Source: Spartobacteria bacterium
Lineage (GTDB): Bacteria; Verrucomicrobiota; Verrucomicrobiia; Chthoniobacterales; Chthoniobacteraceae
NCBI GenBank assembly: GCA_025350985.1
Contig: JANXWU010000238.1
Location: 1-7,603 of the forward strand
Direction of reading: 5' to 3'
Length of the DNA stretch: 7,603 nucleotides
Translations under genes and position numbers: made by a program
In this document: positions 1 through 6,726 of the stretch, piece after piece
Position numbering within the stretch: position 1 is the first letter of the stretch
How the letters are laid out: the number at the start of each line of letters is the position of its first letter
Notes under the pieces: model-generated
Told to the model about the DNA's origin: nothing
The model's input: only the letters and a program-made list of their open reading frames with translations
Databases searched by the model: none

Positions 1-536
1 GATGGCCGTCCGCCGAGGATGGAGCCGGTGTTCATCTGGCAAACGCCAGCCGAGTGATTGATGCCGTCGGCCCAGCAGGAGCGGATGACGGCGAGATCGT
101 CCACCATTTCCGCCGTGTGCGGCAGCCAGTCGCTGACCCACAGCCCGCTCTTGCCATGTTGTTTCCACTCGCGTTTGTCGGTTAAGATGGGTGACCGCGA
201 TTCGCCCATCGCGGTGATGATTTCCCCGAAACTGCTCGGGATTGGTTTGCCCGCGAGCTTGCGAAGTTCCGGCTTCGGATCGAACAAATCGAGATGGCTC
301 GGCCCGCCTTCCATGAACAAAAAAATCACACTCTTCGCGCGCGCGGCGAAGTGCGGCTTCTTCGGAGCGAGCGGGGAAATGATGGGCGACGCCGCCGAGG
401 CCGCGTGTTGTCCGAGGAGATAGTTCAGGGCGAGCGCACCGAAGCCTGCGCCACTTTTGGCGAGGAAATCGCGGCGGGAAAAGGAACGTTGGAAGTGCGG
501 AACTCGGAGCGCGGAATGCGGAGTGGAAGAATACAT
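1..536 (-). CDS. DUF1501 family protein, Tat-exported, N-terminal part only (gene runs off the left edge)
   Basis: This is a partial gene of which the first 178 codons are present. The protein opens with a twin-arginine signal: SRRDFL at residues 20-25, then a hydrophobic stretch to about residue 42 and an Ala-rich cleavage region near 46-49. The mature part shows the DUF1501 start: VIFLFMEGGPSHLDLFDPKP (70-89), GLWVSDWLPH (131-140) and NTGSILGGRP (169-178). DUF1501 proteins resemble the sulfatase/alkaline phosphatase fold, are Tat substrates, and usually sit next to a DUF1549/DUF1553 gene as here; their reaction is unknown. ATG at 536 is the chosen start because an in-frame TAA, the stop of the preceding gene, lies three codons upstream. 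No good Shine-Dalgarno is visible, only an A-rich leader. Residues 4-18 are encoded by a heptamer-repeat array, so this N-terminal extension may be a recent acquisition. The family call is confident; function is not known. Confidence 0.9.
   Translation of the reverse strand, partial: MYSSTPHSALRVPHFQRSFSRRDFLAKSGAGFGALALNYLLGQHAASAASPIISPLAPKKPHFAARAKSVIFLFMEGGPSHLDLFDPKPELRKLAGKPIPSSFGEIITAMGESRSPILTDKREWKQHGKSGLWVSDWLPHTAEMVDDLAVIRSCWADGINHSAGVCQMNTGSILGGRP
482..525. repeat. Heptamer repeat array A (CGGARNN), left border of the four-helix-bundle gene
   Basis: On the plus strand four perfectly phased 7-base units lie at 498-504 (CGGAACT), 505-511 (CGGAGCG), 512-518 (CGGAATG) and 519-525 (CGGAGTG). 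They are preceded by two looser 8-base relatives, AGGAACGT at 482 and TGGAAGTG at 490. The array lies inside the start of the DUF1501 gene and is translated there. Units CGGAACT and CGGAGTG recur in array B in the opposite orientation. Confidence 0.8.
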
Positions 537-542
537 CTTGCG

Positions 543-938
543 TTATTTTTTCTTTCTGGCGGTGACAATGGACGAGACGACCATCGCGAGAATTTCGTTC
601 GCCTCCCGGTGCAGTTCGGCGAGTTTTTCGGCACGGATGATGGAGCCTTCGGTCAACAGTTCAAACCAGTACAAACACTCGTCAGCCTCTTCCTCGACGA
701 TACCGAGTTTTGCACAAAACTCCTGTTGAGAGCGGGCCCGCCGCGCCGCACGATAATTTGCCCCGACGGAAGTCGCGGACCGCAACACTTGCCTGCCAAT
801 CACATCGGCTGCGCGGCCACGGGGTAGTGCGTCCACCAGCTTCATGACGCGCAAGGCGAAATGCTTCGTCCGATAAGCAAGTTGATCGGTTCTGGGGTTT
901 CCCAGTTCCTCACTCCGAGTTCCGAGTTCCGCGTTCAT
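543..938 (-). CDS. Four-helix-bundle protein of the 23S rRNA intervening-sequence (S23/IVP) family
   Basis: A 131-residue protein of the family annotated as four helix bundle protein or 23S rRNA-intervening sequence protein (TIGR02436/PF05635 type). The signature segments are GRAADVIGRQVLRSATSVGA (41-60), NYRAARRARS (61-70), EFCAKLGIVEEEADECLYWF (73-92) and a last amphipathic helix with a basic tail ending RKKK. Relatives form pentameric helical bundles and resemble the Avd protein of diversity-generating retroelements; the cellular role of free-standing copies is unknown. There is no rRNA or retroelement here. The ATG at 938 overlaps the TGA of the upstream DUF1553 gene (ATGA), suggesting translational coupling, and no Shine-Dalgarno is visible. 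It is the only standard start codon before helix 1, so the repeat-encoded residues 2-14 (containing ELGTRSEELG) should be translated. The gene sits between two genes that normally adjoin and is bracketed by inverted heptamer arrays. Confidence 0.88.
   Translation of the reverse strand: MNAELGTRSEELGNPRTDQLAYRTKHFALRVMKLVDALPRGRAADVIGRQVLRSATSVGANYRAARRARSQQEFCAKLGIVEEEADECLYWFELLTEGSIIRAEKLAELHREANEILAMVVSSIVTARKKK
897..931. repeat. Heptamer repeat array B, inverted relative to array A, right border of the four-helix-bundle gene
   Basis: Read on the minus strand, phased 7-base units run CGGAACT (931-925), CGGAACT (924-918), CGGAGTG (917-911) and AGGAACT (910-904), then a weaker GGGAAAC (903-897). 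The array begins seven bases inside the four-helix-bundle gene and encodes part of its N-terminus. A 12-base segment at 921-932 is the exact reverse complement of 497-508 in array A, so the two arrays are inverted repeats about 400 bp apart. Confidence 0.8.
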
Positions 939-3900
939 TCGACGTAGAGGAATTCATTCGAGTTCAAAAGGACGTGGCAGAAATCGCGCAGCGCCGCGGA
1001 GTGGACATCGACTTTTTCGGCGACGCTTTCGGCGACGGTGATGTTCAGTTTGTGCTCGCCAGAATCCAGAAACACGCCCGGCTTTTGCTCGAAGCGCCAG
1101 TAGGCAACCGTCTCGCTGGCCGTTCCTTCCTTGGTCAAAAGAAGCTGCTCGTTGCGCAGCGCCGCGTTGGAAAGGCGCACGTCGTCGATCAGTCCGTCGA
1201 ACCACGATTCCTTGTTCCCGACACGACCGCCGATCGTGAACGGCTCGGCGTTGGCAAAGCCGCCGGCGATCGTGTGCTCGACTTCGGCGGCGAGCAGCGG
1301 GTCCTCGTCATTCGACAAATCCTTCACGAAAAAAGTGACCTTCCCGGAGGCAGTGGCCGACGCGAGCTTCACCGACGCGGCGAGATAATAGGGCTTGTTC
1401 GGTTCGAGGTGCTGGTCGGAAAAAATCGCGTCTTCACCGAAGCTTCCATCCAGCTTTTTGCCGAACATTTGCAGCACCAGTGTCTCCGGTTTGCGGCGCG
1501 ATTTTTTTCCGGTGATGCCAAAGCCCCAGCCGGGTTCCTTCGCATCGCCGTTCCATTTCGCCGCGATCGTGCGGACCGAGCCGTTGTCGTAAATCGAACG
1601 CAAGACGATGAACGCCTCAATCGTGAAATCGCCCGTCGGCAGCGTGTCGCAGTTCGGCACGTCGAAGCGCCGCTGGGAGCTGTTCGGCGCGAGCACCGCA
1701 GCCTGCCCGTCCCGGTATGGAATCTTGTCGTAAATGAAAGCGGCTTTCGCCGAGCCTGCTTTGTTGGGGTCGATGCGCGCTTTTTGTTCCCTTAAAAACG
1801 CCAGCGCCGCCGCAGTTTCGTCAGTGCTGGGCGCGCGCCCAAAAGCGAGCAGATACGCGCGCGCGACGGCCCCGGCGTCGTCCTTGCCACTCTCTTTTTG
1901 CAGGCGATCTGCGAACGCTTTTGCGCGCTGAAGCATCCGCTGGCTGTTGATCAAAAACAGCGACTGCACCGGCGTCGTTGTCGTGTCTCGCGACGAGGCG
2001 CTGGTAAACCAAAATGGCGCGTCAAACACGTCGTTCAGCGGGTCGCGCAGATTGCGCATGATCTTCGTGTAAATCGCGCGCCGCGGCTGATCGCTGTTCA
2101 CGCCCGGCCCGCCCGCAGCAGGTTTCAAATCACCGGTGACGGCGAGCAGCGCGTCACGAATTTGTTCGGCGTCGAGTCGGCGCGTGGGGAACCGCCAGAG
2201 CAGTTTGTTTTCGGGATCGACCAATTGCGGATTGGCGGCTGCGACCGTGGCTTTGCCGGCCGCAAGTTGACTCCCCTGCCGATAGGTCGCGCTCGTCAGG
2301 ATGAGACGGTGCAGTTTTTTCAAACTCCAGCCGTCGGCGACAAACTGCGTCGCGAGGAAATCGAGCAGTTCCGGGTGCGTCGGGGCTTCGCCGAGTTTGC
2401 CAAAGTCGCTGGCATTCGCCGCAAGACCCCGACCGAAATGCTGCTGCCATAAGCGGTTCACCATCACGCGCGCGGTGAGGGGATTCTCAGGACGCGTGAG
2501 CCACGCGGCCAACGCGGAGCGGCGCCCAGTCGTGTTTTTGACCGTCAGTTTTTGAGGGTCGATTTGCGCCGGGTTCGGATCGAGCACCGTCGGGAAACCG
2601 GGATCGATTGCACCGGCCTTTTCTTTTTTTGGAATGAAAACCGGCGGCGCGGAAGGGCCCAGATCGGTGGCGGCGAACGCGACCGGCAGCGGCGCGGGTT
2701 TGTCTTGCTCGAACTCCGCGAGCTGGTGTTTGAGCGTGACGAGTTTCTCCTTGTCGCCGCCTTTGATTTTCGTGTCGAGCCGGTGGAACTCGTAGTGAAC
2801 CTGACGGTAGGCAAGCTCGGCGAGTTGATGCTCCAGCGGTTCGCGCTCGGCGACCGGCTTGAGGATCATCGCCTGGATTTCGTCGGGAAATCTTTTGATC
2901 GCCTCCAGCCGCGCCCGCTCGCGATGAGGCATTTCGATCGCCTCGATTTGCGCGCGCAAGTCCGCACTTTTTTGTTCCCATGCCGCGAGCTTCGCCGCGT
3001 GCTCGGCGAGCTGCGCCTCGGTCGCGGCGACCAAATCCTCGCGCGGCAAAATCGCCGCAAAGAAGGCCTGCAGCCGGTAGTAATCCTTCTGCAAAATCGG
3101 GTCGAACTTGTGGTCATGGCAGCGCGCGCATTGCACGCCCATCCCGAGAAAAACGTCGCCGGTCGTGTCGGTCAGATCGTTCAAAATCGTCGTCCACTGC
3201 CCGCGCACGTCGCGGTTGTTGTACTCGTAAATCCCGTGCCGCAGATAGCCCGTGGCGATGAGCGCGTCGGGGTTGCCGGGGAAAAGCTCGTCGCCCGCGA
3301 GTTGCTCCTTCACGAAGCGATCGTACGGCTTGTCCTCGTTGAGCGCGCTGATGACGTAGTCGCGATAACGCCACGCGTTGGGCCGATAGTCGTCGATGCG
3401 GTAGCCGTCGCTGTCGGCATAGCGCACAAGGTCGAGCCAGTGCCGCGCCCACCGCTCGCCGTAATGCGGACTCGCAAGCACGCGGTCGATGAGTTTTTCG
3501 TAGGCGTCGGTCGATGGGTCGGCCACGAACGTCTCCACTTCTTCCGGCGACGGCGGCAGGCCGAGCATGTCGAAATAAACCCGCCGGACGAGCACGCGCC
3601 GCTCGGCGGAAGGCGACGGTTTCAGTCCCGCGTCGGCGAGTTTTTTGAAAACGAAAGCATCGATGTCGTTGCGACCCCAGCCCTCGTCTTTCACCTGCGG
3701 AGGCTTCGCCTTGCGCATCGGCTGGAACGCCCACCACTGCCGGTCTTCGTCGGTGATTTTTCCACGCGGACGCGCTTTCAGTTTGCCGTCTGCCTGCGCG
3801 GTTTCCGGCCACGGTGCGCCTATTTTTACCCACTCGGTAAGCAGCGCGATTTGCGCGTCGCTGAGTTTCTTCCGGTCGCCTTTAGTGGGCGGCATTTCGA

Positions 3901-4237
3901 GATCAGGATCGGCGTAGCTGATTGCCTTGATGAGCAAACTTTTCGCCGGATCGCCGGGCACGATCGCCGGGCCGGTGTCGCCGCCGGTGAGCGCGCCGTC
4001 GCGCGAGTCAAGGACGAGGCCACCTTTGATTTTCTTCGCCTGATGGCTGTGGCAGTCGAAGCATTGCTCGGTCAGCAAAGGGCGGATGTTTTTCTCAAAA
4101 AACTCCGAGCCTTTCGCATCCGTTTCCGCGCGAGCGCAGACCGCCAAAACAGCGAGAGCCGACACAAGAAACGCCACCGAAAATGCGCGCGAAATTTTGC
4201 CGGTGCTCAAAATGTCACGGCGGCGTTTTGGATTCAT
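935..4237 (-). CDS. Secreted di-heme PSCyt1-DUF1549-DUF1553 (PSD1) protein with a nested LamG-like domain
   Basis: A 1100-residue exported protein. A Sec signal peptide ends near residue 37 (CARA|E). A planctomycete cytochrome C (PSCyt1) domain covers about 43-140, with heme motif CFDCH (59-63) and a likely distal Met in LEMPP (Met115). DUF1549/PSCyt2 covers about 167-395, including GLPPSPEEVETF and a second heme motif CARCH (370-374). A charged, coiled-coil-like linker spans about 400-510. DUF1553/PSD1 starts near 565 (RENPL-type segment, VMVNRLWQQHFGRG) and runs to about 815. A LamG/concanavalin-like domain spans about 830-1050 (FTIEAFIVLRS, WFDGLIDDVRLSNAAL). The protein closes with the usual PSD1 ending, LRDFCHVLLNSNEFLYVE. 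I chose ATG 4237 because AGGAAG lies 6 bases upstream; an in-frame TTG at 4258 would add 7 residues but lacks this spacing. It lies 10 bp after the PQQ-like gene and overlaps the next gene by 4 bp. Two c-hemes suggest periplasmic electron transfer; the substrate is unknown. Confidence 0.93.
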   Translation of the reverse strand: MNPKRRRDILSTGKISRAFSVAFLVSALAVLAVCARAETDAKGSEFFEKNIRPLLTEQCFDCHSHQAKKIKGGLVLDSRDGALTGGDTGPAIVPGDPAKSLLIKAISYADPDLEMPPTKGDRKKLSDAQIALLTEWVKIGAPWPETAQADGKLKARPRGKITDEDRQWWAFQPMRKAKPPQVKDEGWGRNDIDAFVFKKLADAGLKPSPSAERRVLVRRVYFDMLGLPPSPEEVETFVADPSTDAYEKLIDRVLASPHYGERWARHWLDLVRYADSDGYRIDDYRPNAWRYRDYVISALNEDKPYDRFVKEQLAGDELFPGNPDALIATGYLRHGIYEYNNRDVRGQWTTILNDLTDTTGDVFLGMGVQCARCHDHKFDPILQKDYYRLQAFFAAILPREDLVAATEAQLAEHAAKLAAWEQKSADLRAQIEAIEMPHRERARLEAIKRFPDEIQAMILKPVAEREPLEHQLAELAYRQVHYEFHRLDTKIKGGDKEKLVTLKHQLAEFEQDKPAPLPVAFAATDLGPSAPPVFIPKKEKAGAIDPGFPTVLDPNPAQIDPQKLTVKNTTGRRSALAAWLTRPENPLTARVMVNRLWQQHFGRGLAANASDFGKLGEAPTHPELLDFLATQFVADGWSLKKLHRLILTSATYRQGSQLAAGKATVAAANPQLVDPENKLLWRFPTRRLDAEQIRDALLAVTGDLKPAAGGPGVNSDQPRRAIYTKIMRNLRDPLNDVFDAPFWFTSASSRDTTTTPVQSLFLINSQRMLQRAKAFADRLQKESGKDDAGAVARAYLLAFGRAPSTDETAAALAFLREQKARIDPNKAGSAKAAFIYDKIPYRDGQAAVLAPNSSQRRFDVPNCDTLPTGDFTIEAFIVLRSIYDNGSVRTIAAKWNGDAKEPGWGFGITGKKSRRKPETLVLQMFGKKLDGSFGEDAIFSDQHLEPNKPYYLAASVKLASATASGKVTFFVKDLSNDEDPLLAAEVEHTIAGGFANAEPFTIGGRVGNKESWFDGLIDDVRLSNAALRNEQLLLTKEGTASETVAYWRFEQKPGVFLDSGEHKLNITVAESVAEKVDVHSAALRDFCHVLLNSNEFLYVE
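1030..1725 (-). other. Coding segment for a LamG-like domain nested within the PSD1 C-terminal region
   Basis: This segment encodes about residues 838-1070 of the DUF1553 protein. Beta-rich lectin-like sequence is visible: TGDFTIEAFIVLRSIYDNGS, GWGFGITG, KPYYLAASVK, FTIGGRVG, WFDGLIDDVRLSNAAL and ETVAYWRFEQ. This order matches LamG/concanavalin A-like domains, which often bind carbohydrate or adhere to surfaces. PSD1-type sequence lies on both sides (AYLLAFGRAPSTDE before, LRDFCHVLLNSNEFLYVE after), so the domain is inserted and not appended. Boundaries are approximate. Confidence 0.7.
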
Positions 4238-4243
4238 CGTGTG

Positions 4244-4249
4244 CTTCCT
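4244..4249 (-). promoter_or_regulatory. Shine-Dalgarno AGGAAG that decides the DUF1553 start
   Basis: AGGAAG ends six bases before the ATG at 4237 and overlaps the TAG stop of the upstream propeller gene (4250-4248). This supports ATG 4237 over the upstream in-frame TTG at 4258, and points to coupled translation of the two genes. Confidence 0.65.
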
Positions 4250-5507
4250 ATTCAGCAATCGCCATGGCGGTTAGGTGCGATTCGTCCTTCACAAAAATTC
4301 GGCCATCCACGTAGGCCGGGCTCGCCCAAGTCGTGCCGCAGACTTGCGCGCGTCCCAGTTCCTCGTATTTCGCGGGCGAGGCTTTCACCAGAATCAGCTC
4401 TCCATTCGAGTTGAGCACCAGCAGCTTGTCGTTGACCGCCGTGATGCTTGCGTAATCGGCCAGCCCCGGCTGCGCCCAGATTTGTTTGCCTGTCGCGGCT
4501 TCGAGGCAGACAAGATCGGCGTGATCGCGCGGCCCGAGCGTGAAGATATTTTTCCCCACGAGAATCGGCGAGCCGATGATGGTCTTGCACTGCGCATTCG
4601 CCCACGCCTGCTCCGCCGCGAACTCGGCGCCTTTTTTTACGATGCGAAACTGCAGCGTGCCAATGCTCGTCGAGGCGACAGTGACCGTGTCGCCCGCGAT
4701 GACCGGCGTGCAGGCGTGGCGTTTTGCCCCGGTCTTCAACGGCACGCGCCAAAGCACTTTTCCGTTCGCGGCATCGACGCCCATCAGTGCGTCCGCGGTG
4801 AAATGCACGGCCTGCCGCGTGCCCGCAAGCGTCGCCACCATTACCGATGAATAAGCCGTGTTATCGCTGCCCGCGCGCCAGATTTCCTTGCCGGTTTTTT
4901 TGTCGAAACAGACCAGCGTCGCGCCGTTGATGCTGCCCACGGGAACGAAAATGCGCTCGCCGTCGATGGCCGCGGAGCCGTTGTTGCCGTGGCGGCGCGA
5001 GGCCGTTTCGTTCGCGCCGGGGTCACCGCTTTTGTTGCCGATAAAAGTCGCGCCGTAGTCCTTGCCAAAACTCACATGCCAGAGCACGCGTCCATCTGCC
5101 AGCGACAGGCAACTGAACTCGCCCCCGCACGTCTGCACGTACACGCGGTCACCGTCGATGAGCGGCGTGCTGCGTGGCCCGCCACCGTACGGGGGCGAGA
5201 GCGTCACCATCGGTCCCGCCGGCACGCTCCACAGACTTTTTCCGGTCGCCGCATCGAGGCAGTGCGCGGTTTCCTGACCGTTCTGTCCATCGAGAAAAAT
5301 CAGCCGGCCGCCCGCGACGATGGGCGACGACTGTCCCGGCCCGGCGTTAATTTTCCACAGCGTCTTCGGCTCGGCAGAGAGTTTGTTGAGAGCGTGCTTC
5401 GCGTCCACCGTCACGCCGTCGCGATTGGGCCCGCGCCATTGGGGCCAGTCGGCGAAAGCAAGGGTAGGGAACGCAACGAGAACCAGCAGGGGGACCGCAG
5501 TTTTCAT
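4248..5507 (-). CDS. Secreted PQQ-binding-like (BamB-type) beta-propeller protein
   Basis: A 419-residue protein with a short Sec signal peptide (MKTAVPLLVLVAFPTLAFA, cleavage after residue 19). The mature N-terminus DWPQWRGPNRDGV is typical of planctomycete/verrucomicrobial PQQ-like propellers. Propeller blade motifs of the form D-x-x-T/N-G-K-x-x-W recur: LDAATGKSLW (84-93), LADGRVLW (136-143), FDKKTGKEIW (201-210), VDAANGKVLW (244-253) and LEAATGKQIW (335-344), giving five clear blades and probably more degenerate ones. These proteins share the fold of quinoprotein dehydrogenases and BamB, but I see no case for enzymatic activity, and quinone binding is not shown. ATG 5507 is preferred because it sets the signal peptide at the N-terminus; the open frame extends upstream to 5741 but would run into the divergent isomerase gene. 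It has no obvious Shine-Dalgarno. It is the first gene of the minus-strand operon, 10 bp before the DUF1553 start. Confidence 0.92.
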   Translation of the reverse strand: MKTAVPLLVLVAFPTLAFADWPQWRGPNRDGVTVDAKHALNKLSAEPKTLWKINAGPGQSSPIVAGGRLIFLDGQNGQETAHCLDAATGKSLWSVPAGPMVTLSPPYGGGPRSTPLIDGDRVYVQTCGGEFSCLSLADGRVLWHVSFGKDYGATFIGNKSGDPGANETASRRHGNNGSAAIDGERIFVPVGSINGATLVCFDKKTGKEIWRAGSDNTAYSSVMVATLAGTRQAVHFTADALMGVDAANGKVLWRVPLKTGAKRHACTPVIAGDTVTVASTSIGTLQFRIVKKGAEFAAEQAWANAQCKTIIGSPILVGKNIFTLGPRDHADLVCLEAATGKQIWAQPGLADYASITAVNDKLLVLNSNGELILVKASPAKYEELGRAQVCGTTWASPAYVDGRIFVKDESHLTAMAIAE

Positions 5508-5598: not shown

Positions 5599-6726
5599 AT
5601 GAAGGTAAATGGCCGGCACTTCCGAACCATCTGGTTGAAAGAAAACGATCCCCGCGTGGTGCAAGTCATCGACCAGCGCGCGCTTCCGCACCGGTTCGTG
5701 ATTGCGGAGATCAAAACGGTGAAGCAAGCCGCCGCCGCCATCCGGGATATGCTGGTCCGCGGAGCCGGGTTGATCGGCGCGACCGCAGGCTACGCGATGT
5801 ATCTCGCCGCGCTGGAAGCGTCGCGATCGACTGATTTCGAGGCGAAACTTTTCCAAGCAGCGGGAGAGTTGAAGGCCACGCGGCCAACGGCGGTGAATCT
5901 TGCCCGGTCGGTGGATTTGCAGTTGAAAAGGCTCGCACTTGCGCCGACGCCCGAAGCGAAAATCGCGGCCGCTCTTGGAACTGCGATGCAAATCGCGGAC
6001 GAAGACGCGGAATTCTGCCGGCGCATAGGCGAGCACGGGCTTGGACTGATCCAGCGTTTGAGCAAAAACAAAAATGGAGCGCCGGTGCATATCCTGACCC
6101 ACTGCAACGCGGGCTGGCTGGCCTTTGTCGATTACGGTTCAGCGACCGCGCCCATTTACGCGGCGCATGACCTTGGGGTTTCGGTGCATGTCTGGGTTGA
6201 TGAAACCAGGCCGCGCAGTCAGGGCTCAAAGCTAACTGCTTGGGAACTCGGGGAGCACGGGGTGCCGCATACGATTATTGCCGACAATACCGGCGGACAC
6301 CTAATGCAACACGGAATGGTGGACATGGTCATCGTGGGGACTGATCGCACGACTTGCACCGGCGATGTGGCCAATAAGATCGGAACCTATCTAAAAGCGC
6401 TGGCGGCGAAGGACAATGGAGTCCCTTTCTATGTCGCGCTTCCGTCGTCCTCCTTCGATTGGAAGCTACGCGATGGGTTAAGCGAAATTCCCATTGAGGA
6501 ACGCGATTCCGATGAAGTGCGCTTCGCCGACGGATGGCACGACGACGGGCACACCGAAGTTCGCGTGTGTCCTGAAAAAAGTAGCGCGGCCAACTATGGA
6601 TTCGACGTGACGCCCCGCCGCCTGGTCACCGGGCTCATTACCGAGCGCGGCCTTTGCGAAGCCAATGAAGAAAGCATTAGGTCACTCTTTCCAGACTTAG
6701 CCGGATTCGCGGCCATTGCAGAGTAA
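5599..6726 (+). CDS. mtnA: MtnA-family isomerase, probably S-methyl-5-thioribose-1-phosphate isomerase or a close paralogue
   Basis: A 375-residue cytoplasmic protein of the aldose-1-phosphate to ketose-1-phosphate isomerase family that includes MtnA and the eIF2B-alpha-like fold. MtnA converts 5-methylthioribose-1-phosphate to 5-methylthioribulose-1-phosphate in methionine salvage. Visible motifs: RGAGLIG (54-60, phosphate-site loop), LTHCNAG (166-172) with catalytic Cys169, DETRPRSQGSKLTAWEL (201-217), IVGTDR (245-250) with catalytic Asp249, GDVANKIGTY (255-264), and the C-terminal substrate loop around NYGFDVTP (332-339). Length is normal for the family. Departures from standard MtnA include RGAGLIG instead of the usual RGAPAIG, and GTDR instead of GADR. 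No mtnK, mtnP, mtnB or mtnC gene is in view, so a related role such as 5-deoxyribose-1-phosphate isomerase (DrdI-like) is possible. It is transcribed divergently from the propeller operon. Family confidence is high; the exact substrate is less sure. Confidence 0.9.
   Translation: MKVNGRHFRTIWLKENDPRVVQVIDQRALPHRFVIAEIKTVKQAAAAIRDMLVRGAGLIGATAGYAMYLAALEASRSTDFEAKLFQAAGELKATRPTAVNLARSVDLQLKRLALAPTPEAKIAAALGTAMQIADEDAEFCRRIGEHGLGLIQRLSKNKNGAPVHILTHCNAGWLAFVDYGSATAPIYAAHDLGVSVHVWVDETRPRSQGSKLTAWELGEHGVPHTIIADNTGGHLMQHGMVDMVIVGTDRTTCTGDVANKIGTYLKALAAKDNGVPFYVALPSSSFDWKLRDGLSEIPIEERDSDEVRFADGWHDDGHTEVRVCPEKSSAANYGFDVTPRRLVTGLITERGLCEANEESIRSLFPDLAGFAAIAE

Follow-up and report, generated by a model that had tools for sequence, protein, structure and literature searches.

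The window analyzed here, meaning the whole stretch of DNA under study, comprises 7,603 nucleotides of a contig from a Spartobacteria bacterium (JANXWU010000238.1 in assembly GCA_025350985.1; an 88% complete MAG, referred to as G000). On its minus strand, a gene for a 131-aa four-helix-bundle protein of the S23 (23S_rRNA_IVP) family (543 to 938) lies between an upstream PSCyt1/DUF1549/DUF1553 gene (935 to 4258, minus strand), the end of which is joined to DUF1501 in relatives, and a downstream DUF1501 gene (3 to 536, minus strand), which is cut by the contig end and whose start codon now falls within the S23 cassette. Relative to S23, the 3′ cassette end is a left heptamer array of four phased CGGARNN units (497 to 526, plus strand), and the 5′ end is a right array of five units (about 896 to 936, minus strand), the two innermost of which have decayed to AGGAACT and GGGAAAC. 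The opposite-facing CGGAR arrays and the 12-base inverted match described in the first-pass annotation were both borne out, since GCGGAACTCGGA (497 to 508) is the exact reverse complement of positions 921 to 932, and each strand of the window has one chain of at least three CGGAR motifs at period 7, a pattern seen in none of 2000 first-order Markov shuffles.

Both arrays are also read as protein. The DUF1553 and S23 genes share the bases ATGA (935 to 938, minus strand), in which the stop codon of the former overlaps the start codon of the latter, and the array starts at most 2 nt from that stop. As a consequence, translation of the right array gives the S23 N terminus (MNAELGTRSEELG...), while the left array codes for the N terminus of the present DUF1501 open reading frame (ORF) (MYSSTPHSALRVPHFQ...). 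The S23 ORF matched PF05635 with 62 bits (cut-off, 33.8) and also TIGR02436, confirming the earlier assignment of an S23/IVP-type gene between the arrays. Its AlphaFold2 model had a mean pLDDT of 93.3, with a block mean of 67 to 68 over the first 20, array-coded residues. A Foldseek search with this model returned, as the sole matches under an E value of 0.001, the S23 family protein 2rld in each of its five chains, all of one sequence; weaker matches included 2gsc (E of at least 0.002), Avd (4dwl, 0.036), and a complex from a diversity-generating retroelement (8ub7, 0.069), with unrelated helical inhibitors (e.g., 1x8z) interleaved among them. The paper on 2gsc, going by its title, reportedly concerns an assembly of five four-helix bundles. 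PF05635 was the sole Pfam family found in the cassette protein, which carries no HuH Y1 transposase domain, and no transposase, recombinase, or nuclease lies within the cassette. No Rfam family scored above its gathering score in the window, and PADLOC gave no match. Elsewhere in the window, positions 5599 to 6726 (plus strand) code for an IF-2B family protein unrelated to the cassette, possibly a methylthioribose-1-phosphate isomerase.

We then examined the DUF1553|DUF1501 junction in related genomes. The window DUF1501 end was searched in 40 genomes of the family and had a strict-threshold match in 24, its own genome included, and 24 related loci from 23 genomes were compared. The junction was closed, with at most 70 nt between the aligned parts and no S23 gene, in 21 of these 24 loci, some of which may be paralogues, because the families are large and DUF1501 identities were about 56 to 74%. 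Among the other three, one held 616 nt of other sequence and two lacked the upstream DUF1553 piece. These closed junctions support the earlier claim that the S23 block is inserted where two genes normally adjoin.

The window MAG contained five further S23 loci, each with its own, unlike inverted heptamer arrays, at pyrB/pyrC, livG/livF, purA/uppS, DUF58/BatA, and one unnamed neighbor pair (here and for cysD|cysN below, neighbors were named by reading, with no family search). The S23 copy at pyrB|pyrC is broken into two frames with one stop. For this junction, 37 genomes matched and 30 loci were fetched, 29 of them from relatives, in which the gap was at most 89 nt in 15, larger with other content in 11 (three of them above 900 nt, content having been read for the smaller ones), and the pair was missing in 3. 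By eye, livG and livF abut or overlap in 22 of 29 relatives. The comparison of the DUF1553|DUF1501 junction in relatives that had been suggested at the outset located S23-less sites, and such sites were also present at pyrB|pyrC and livG|livF. At the latter two junctions, S23-less array hairpins or arrays of other units were seen by eye in other genomes (L134, L148, and L149), hinting that the same junctions have been hit repeatedly.

The outer arm edge of the cassettes tends to lie close to the stop codon of a neighboring gene. For 92 of 146 sides, an ORF of at least 100 codons ended between −60 and +45 nt of the outer arm edge, and the distance of the neighbor ORF end from that edge had a median of −1 (middle half, −9 to +9), where ORFs were counted stop to stop and some may be spurious. 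By reading, the neighbors (pyr, liv, cys, pur/upp, and DUF1553) have no common pathway, and S23 exceeded the Pfam cut-off in 38 of 57 genomes, a patchy presence in unrelated operons. Seven S23 loci with differing units had homologous flanks (G000:C160, G016:C126, G028:C4, G012:C134, G022:C145, G035:C168, and G012:C147), possibly marking a recurrent insertion neighborhood. At two other loci (L225 and L226), the S23 cassette is embedded in, or placed between pieces of, sequence that reads as hsdM-like, in restriction-modification loci.

To describe the flanks of S23 genes in general, we collected 103 rows above the Pfam cut-off from the 57 genomes and used 89, one of them without flank; the 14 left out were mostly partial matches or long frames. 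An arm score was obtained by local alignment of the upstream flank against the reverse complement of the downstream flank. As judged by this score, 70 of 88 S23 genes had inverted matching flanks at 18 or above and 74 at 16 or above, leaving 14 below 16, while scores of 18 or above were reached by 6 of 88 in direct orientation and by 1 of 100 cross-locus pairings. A simple tandem repeat is expected to have no inverted preference, and this expectation failed at the same 70 inverted versus 6 direct. Strictly periodic arrays within 275 nt on either side flanked 51 of 89 S23 genes, and 15 of these genes had one on each side. The remainder of these loci contained 27 strict arrays over 369,463 nt, which corresponds to 0.040 per equal length. 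In one genome, a stretch of 400 kb contained 9 strict arrays, of which 1 had an inverted and 2 had a direct partner. The repeat period, assigned at 74 loci, was 7 in 59, 8 in 7, 6 in 5, 9 in 2, and 11 in 1, and the outer length of the element was 455 to 551 nt (middle half) with arms of about 4 to 6 units, both as the alignment cut them.

CGGARNN itself was rejected as a family signature, because the loci have their own units, and the other S23 loci of the window MAG carry different ones. These results indicated that the conserved feature is an inverted phased repetition with a lineage-dependent period. The claim that CGGARNN arrays bracket S23 genes thus stood as regards facing arrays, which are far above chance, and fell as regards CGGARNN, which is not general. 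Gene-free arrays spread over the genome had been named as an outcome that would count against the first reading; arrays of the same unit do exist without S23, but S23 genes are strongly associated with arrays (51 of 89).

The architecture extended to named genomes of other phyla. A scan with a 10-row S23 alignment gave at least 563 confirmed relatives, and among the best 80 of these, 78 of which had enough flank, the arm score was 16 or above in 62 of 78 and 18 or above in 56 of 78; in the controls for the same best 80, 18 or above was reached by 12 of 78 in direct orientation and by 7 of 80 cross-locus pairings. More cross-locus matches than in the first set are expected if related S23 genes share units. 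According to record titles, array-positive loci came from Verrucomicrobia, Acidobacteria, Chloroflexi, Planctomycetes, Bacteroidetes, Ignavibacteria, Armatimonadetes, Lentisphaerae, Alpha- and Deltaproteobacteria, Lamprocystis, which is a gammaproteobacterium, and a Magasanikbacteria genome. The isolates Lamprocystis purpurea, Herpetosiphon geysericola, and Pontibacter populi and a complete chromosome of Roseithermus were among the positives, which excludes an assembly artefact as the cause.

Next, we compared repeat period and unit with S23 lineage, using a quick tree of 89 S23 proteins (106 columns, with 36 of 85 inner forks open). The period changed 7 times over 73 loci, whereas 2000 shuffles averaged 13.7 changes and never gave fewer than 11. 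The five period-6 loci all grouped within a single clade of seven rows, and a clade of eleven rows took in five of the seven period-8 loci; since four of the period-6 loci represent one orthologous junction, the test rests mainly on period 8. For this reason, loci with homologous flanks were thinned and the test was repeated; the thinned set (50 to 52 of the 73 loci) gave 6 to 7 period changes against shuffled means of 9.8 to 10.7, and in each of 20 thinnings no more than 2 of 300 shuffles reached so few changes.

Units were compared over 6,493 pairs of period-7 elements without detected same-side flank homology, a filter for unlike sites that is imperfect, as L225/L226 passed it despite a common downstream hsdM-like stretch. 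On the S23 sense strand, unit similarity increased from 0.456 at S23 identity below 30% to 0.689 at 70% or above, while opposite-strand similarity dropped from 0.42 to 0.352 as identity rose, and unit and S23 identity were correlated over 115 elements (Mantel r of 0.444; 0 of 1000 permutations). Of 127 consensus units of period 7 to 9, 93 contained a conserved GA dinucleotide, compared with 56.5 expected from column shuffles (maximum of 69 in 500 shuffles); in the five period-6 loci, it lies on the opposite strand (TC in all five). By eye, the orthologous period-6 arms differ mainly at spacer positions, without clear compensation.

Several loci bear on how the cassettes may have moved. Two S23 genes with 95% identity lie at unlike sites, G004:C60 and G016:C130 (L106 and L081), where homology runs from array to array and none is evident beyond the arrays. 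The flanks of a second pair (S23 genes of L219 and L220, 98% identical) are unlike apart from some 16 nt adjoining one end, possibly a target preference or a carried flank. The L225/L226 pair was dropped as a clean case of transposition because the downstream hsdM-like sequence is shared. Within one genus, the cysD|cysN junction differs between three species: G004 has a cassette of unit GATTGCG there, G025 has a cassette of unit CCGGATA whose S23 gene belongs to another branch, and G060 has neither. At a second junction, S23 is present in G016, while G033 and G004, whose flanks are 97% and 94% identical to those of G016, have the same arms around a short loop without S23, and G025 has a GTGACTG hairpin. 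Given these S23-less arms in close relatives, parsimony would have it that S23 at G016:C130 may have entered a pre-existing array hairpin, rather than the whole cassette having moved. No target-site duplication was found or was evident by eye, the nearest empty site (G060) having a flank only about 84% identical. Purifying selection acts on S23: dN/dS was 0.03 to 0.09 in 10 of 11 pairs and 0.25 in the least diverged one, with silent sites close to saturated in several pairs.

Arrays were also dispersed away from S23 genes. Genomes with the CGGARNN S23 unit had 5 (G000), 94 (G017), 10 (G035), and 618 (G048) hits to the CGGARNN x3.4 pattern, compared with a median of 0 in the other 53 genomes (14 nonzero; maximum, 18; p of 1.1 × 10−4), and GGATTKC gave 67, 22, and 12 hits in G004, G016, and G035, compared with a median of 0 in 54 others (12 nonzero; maximum, 17; p of 1.9 × 10−4); genomes were assigned by hand, the p values ignore kinship, and pattern hits overlap, so that long arrays are counted repeatedly and most listed G017 hits come from two arrays. 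A backward control pattern was high in G047, G054, G002, and G019. It exceeded the pattern in G054 (173 versus 18) and G047 (20 versus 12), which suggests that another heptamer family may be abundant in these two genomes. In G017 (L318), CGGARNN arrays run for hundreds of bases. Of 37 arrays sampled for a partner within 260 nt, 10 had an inverted one, 4 a direct one, and 23 neither, the sample including at least one cassette arm (L348) whose partner is further off; the 27 arrays without an inverted partner in this range suggest that arrays may spread by themselves.

In the window MAG, CGGARNN arrays were also found in frame inside genes, namely, in mfd (L015, about 515 to 550; G000:C204), in a gene read as ispG-like (L018, about 1500 to 1522; G000:C249), and, as an inverted pair, in a third gene (L009, about 1500 to 1590; G000:C76). 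The array-coded residues of mfd form an insertion in the alignment with E. coli Mfd. As for enzymes that might act in trans, RVT_1 had no match in the cassette carriers G000 (88% complete), G007, and G051 and was present in 25 of 57 genomes, which ruled out a reverse transcriptase as an obligatory partner. Y1_Tnp had no match in G007 and G051, and G000 had 3; these two carriers ruled out a Y1 transposase in the same role.

We reasoned that an S23 gene and two inverted phased arrays make up a cassette of about 440 to 500 bp that has probably moved as a unit and whose protein is predicted to bind the arrays. The original proposal of a mobile cassette holds in respect of the insertion, the facing arrays, and the array-to-array homology of L106/L081, while its CGGARNN wording does not. 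Judging from the co-variation of protein and unit, S23 would bind the arrays as its cognate cassette ends. A ring-forming bundle could read one unit per subunit, with the GA core and a variable spacer, a picture drawn from the five-chain assembly of 2rld, and such a ring may draw the two cassette ends together. Cutting and joining would be left to an enzyme supplied in trans or to host replication and recombination, and S23-less single arrays and array hairpins might be non-autonomous or relict forms, standing to the cassette as REPs do to a REPtron. More tentatively, and with somewhat less confidence than an even bet would need, S23/IVP proteins could serve as recognition subunits for a single class of mobile elements found across bacteria, in which a protein lineage sets the period (6 to 9 nt) and the unit that its ring reads and seeds matching arrays throughout the genome, and of which the 23S rRNA intervening sequence (IVS) would be one rRNA-resident case.

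RNA-hairpin processing is the main rival to this cassette reading, and the two are compatible. Here, the arrays would pair in the transcript to form a stem around the S23 message, which RNase III would excise from the polycistronic mRNA, so that S23 rides in a low-cost loop. The protein might bind this stem or the message encoding it. The predicted RNA fold of the window cassette does pair the two arrays (z of −3.03; 100 shuffles), cassettes sit at the stop codons of their neighbors, and the stem of the Coxiella 23S IVS, which is cut by RNase III according to passages of PMC4990558, provides a precedent. In-register matching of the arms also exceeds, by a small margin, what their units would give (above the shuffle mean at 39 of 55 loci and individually so at 4 of 55), as an RNA or single-stranded DNA hairpin would predict; at this size, the excess was rejected as the strong in-register complementarity that would prove an RNA stem. 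However, an inverted partner within 260 nt was missing for 27 of the 37 arrays sampled, the orthologous period-6 arms vary mainly in spacers with no compensation clear to the eye, and base pairing by itself leaves unexplained that period and unit track S23 lineage and that one strand sense is preferred. We consider RNA processing unlikely as the explanation.

A domesticated regulator, in which S23 binds nucleic acid, the arrays are its operators, and copies spread by homologous recombination between arrays, would also fit the purifying selection on S23, the cognate-unit arrays at other places of the genome, and the hairpin loop that S23 appears to have entered. The patchy presence in 38 of 57 genomes, in unrelated operons whose neighbors have no common pathway, argues against such a role and makes it quite improbable. 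Finally, the arrays might be hypermutable microsatellites at gene boundaries that S23 tolerates or with which it hitchhikes. S23-less heptamer arrays are indeed common in some genomes and some are long (618 and 94 overlapping hits in G048 and G017), but slippage alone is not expected to yield inverted, not direct, pairing around S23 or to match period and unit to S23 lineage, and we regard this passive origin as very improbable.

The S23/IVP family first came to notice as an insertion in 23S rRNA genes. According to PMC4990558, the 23S IVS of Coxiella measures 428 nt, carries an S23 ORF, and ends in a 28-bp stem that RNase III cuts, and such S23/IVP IVSs are sporadic and thought to be spread horizontally; S23 ORFs are also described, in passages of PMC11270868, within insertions of the 16S genes of CPR bacteria. 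The cassette resembles the 23S rRNA IVSs of, for example, Coxiella and Leptospira in S23 family and that of Coxiella also in size class and terminal inverted repeats, and its predicted RNA fold has the complementary, stem-closing termini of an IVS (z of −3.03). In contrast, it lies between protein-coding genes (DUF1553 and DUF1501) and not in an rRNA gene, its arrays are phased at 6 to 9 nt and track S23 lineage, and S23-less arrays occur elsewhere. With the REPtron (TnpA_REP/RAYT and cognate REPs, as outlined in part of PMC8266576), the cassette shares one gene, inverted bordering repeats, and dispersed copies, while differing in its helix bundle without HuH and in its tandem arrays, which are not the GTAG REP palindromes of that account. 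As tested, the cassette works like a REPtron, is nearest to the 23S IVS by protein family, and is a member of neither. Avd of diversity-generating retroelements has a fold like that of the window S23 (4dwl, E of 0.036; 8ub7, E of 0.069), and homology of PF05635 and Avd is reported in a passage of PMC10053308; unlike such a retroelement, the window genome (88% complete) had no reverse transcriptase match.

Cyanobacterial STRRs are period-7 repeats and mostly intergenic, and MITEs and Rickettsia-type palindromic elements are short, non-autonomous, capable of in-frame insertion into genes, and bounded by fixed terminal sequences. Cassette ends differ from the ends of MITEs and Rickettsia palindromic elements in that they have only architecture and lineage-dependent units in common. 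The TAACTGA heptamers of Beggiatoaceae, cyanobacteria, and Bacteroidetes, for which a repeat-binding protein has been proposed as a mobile element, resemble S23 arrays in their period of 7 and mostly intergenic location and differ in being direct repeats, and S23 is not named in the searched text of that paper (PMC4679880). A link to these repeats was rejected, as TAACTGA x3 was absent from 358 loci. In the passages of the open-access PMC literature that were consulted, we found no report tying S23 genes to flanking arrays.

S23 travelling with its cognate arrays, together with a repeat length that tracks protein lineage, makes array binding a testable candidate function for the widespread S23/IVP family, and exchanging arrays between S23 clades would be expected to break the protein-array pair. 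The finding also links selfish 23S rRNA intervening sequences, unexplained heptamer repeats, and the Avd-like fold. As a minor observation, a legend in a CRISPR-association study (PMC10910872) names 23S rRNA IVP, and one might speculate that S23-adjacent micro-arrays have been mistaken for CRISPR arrays.
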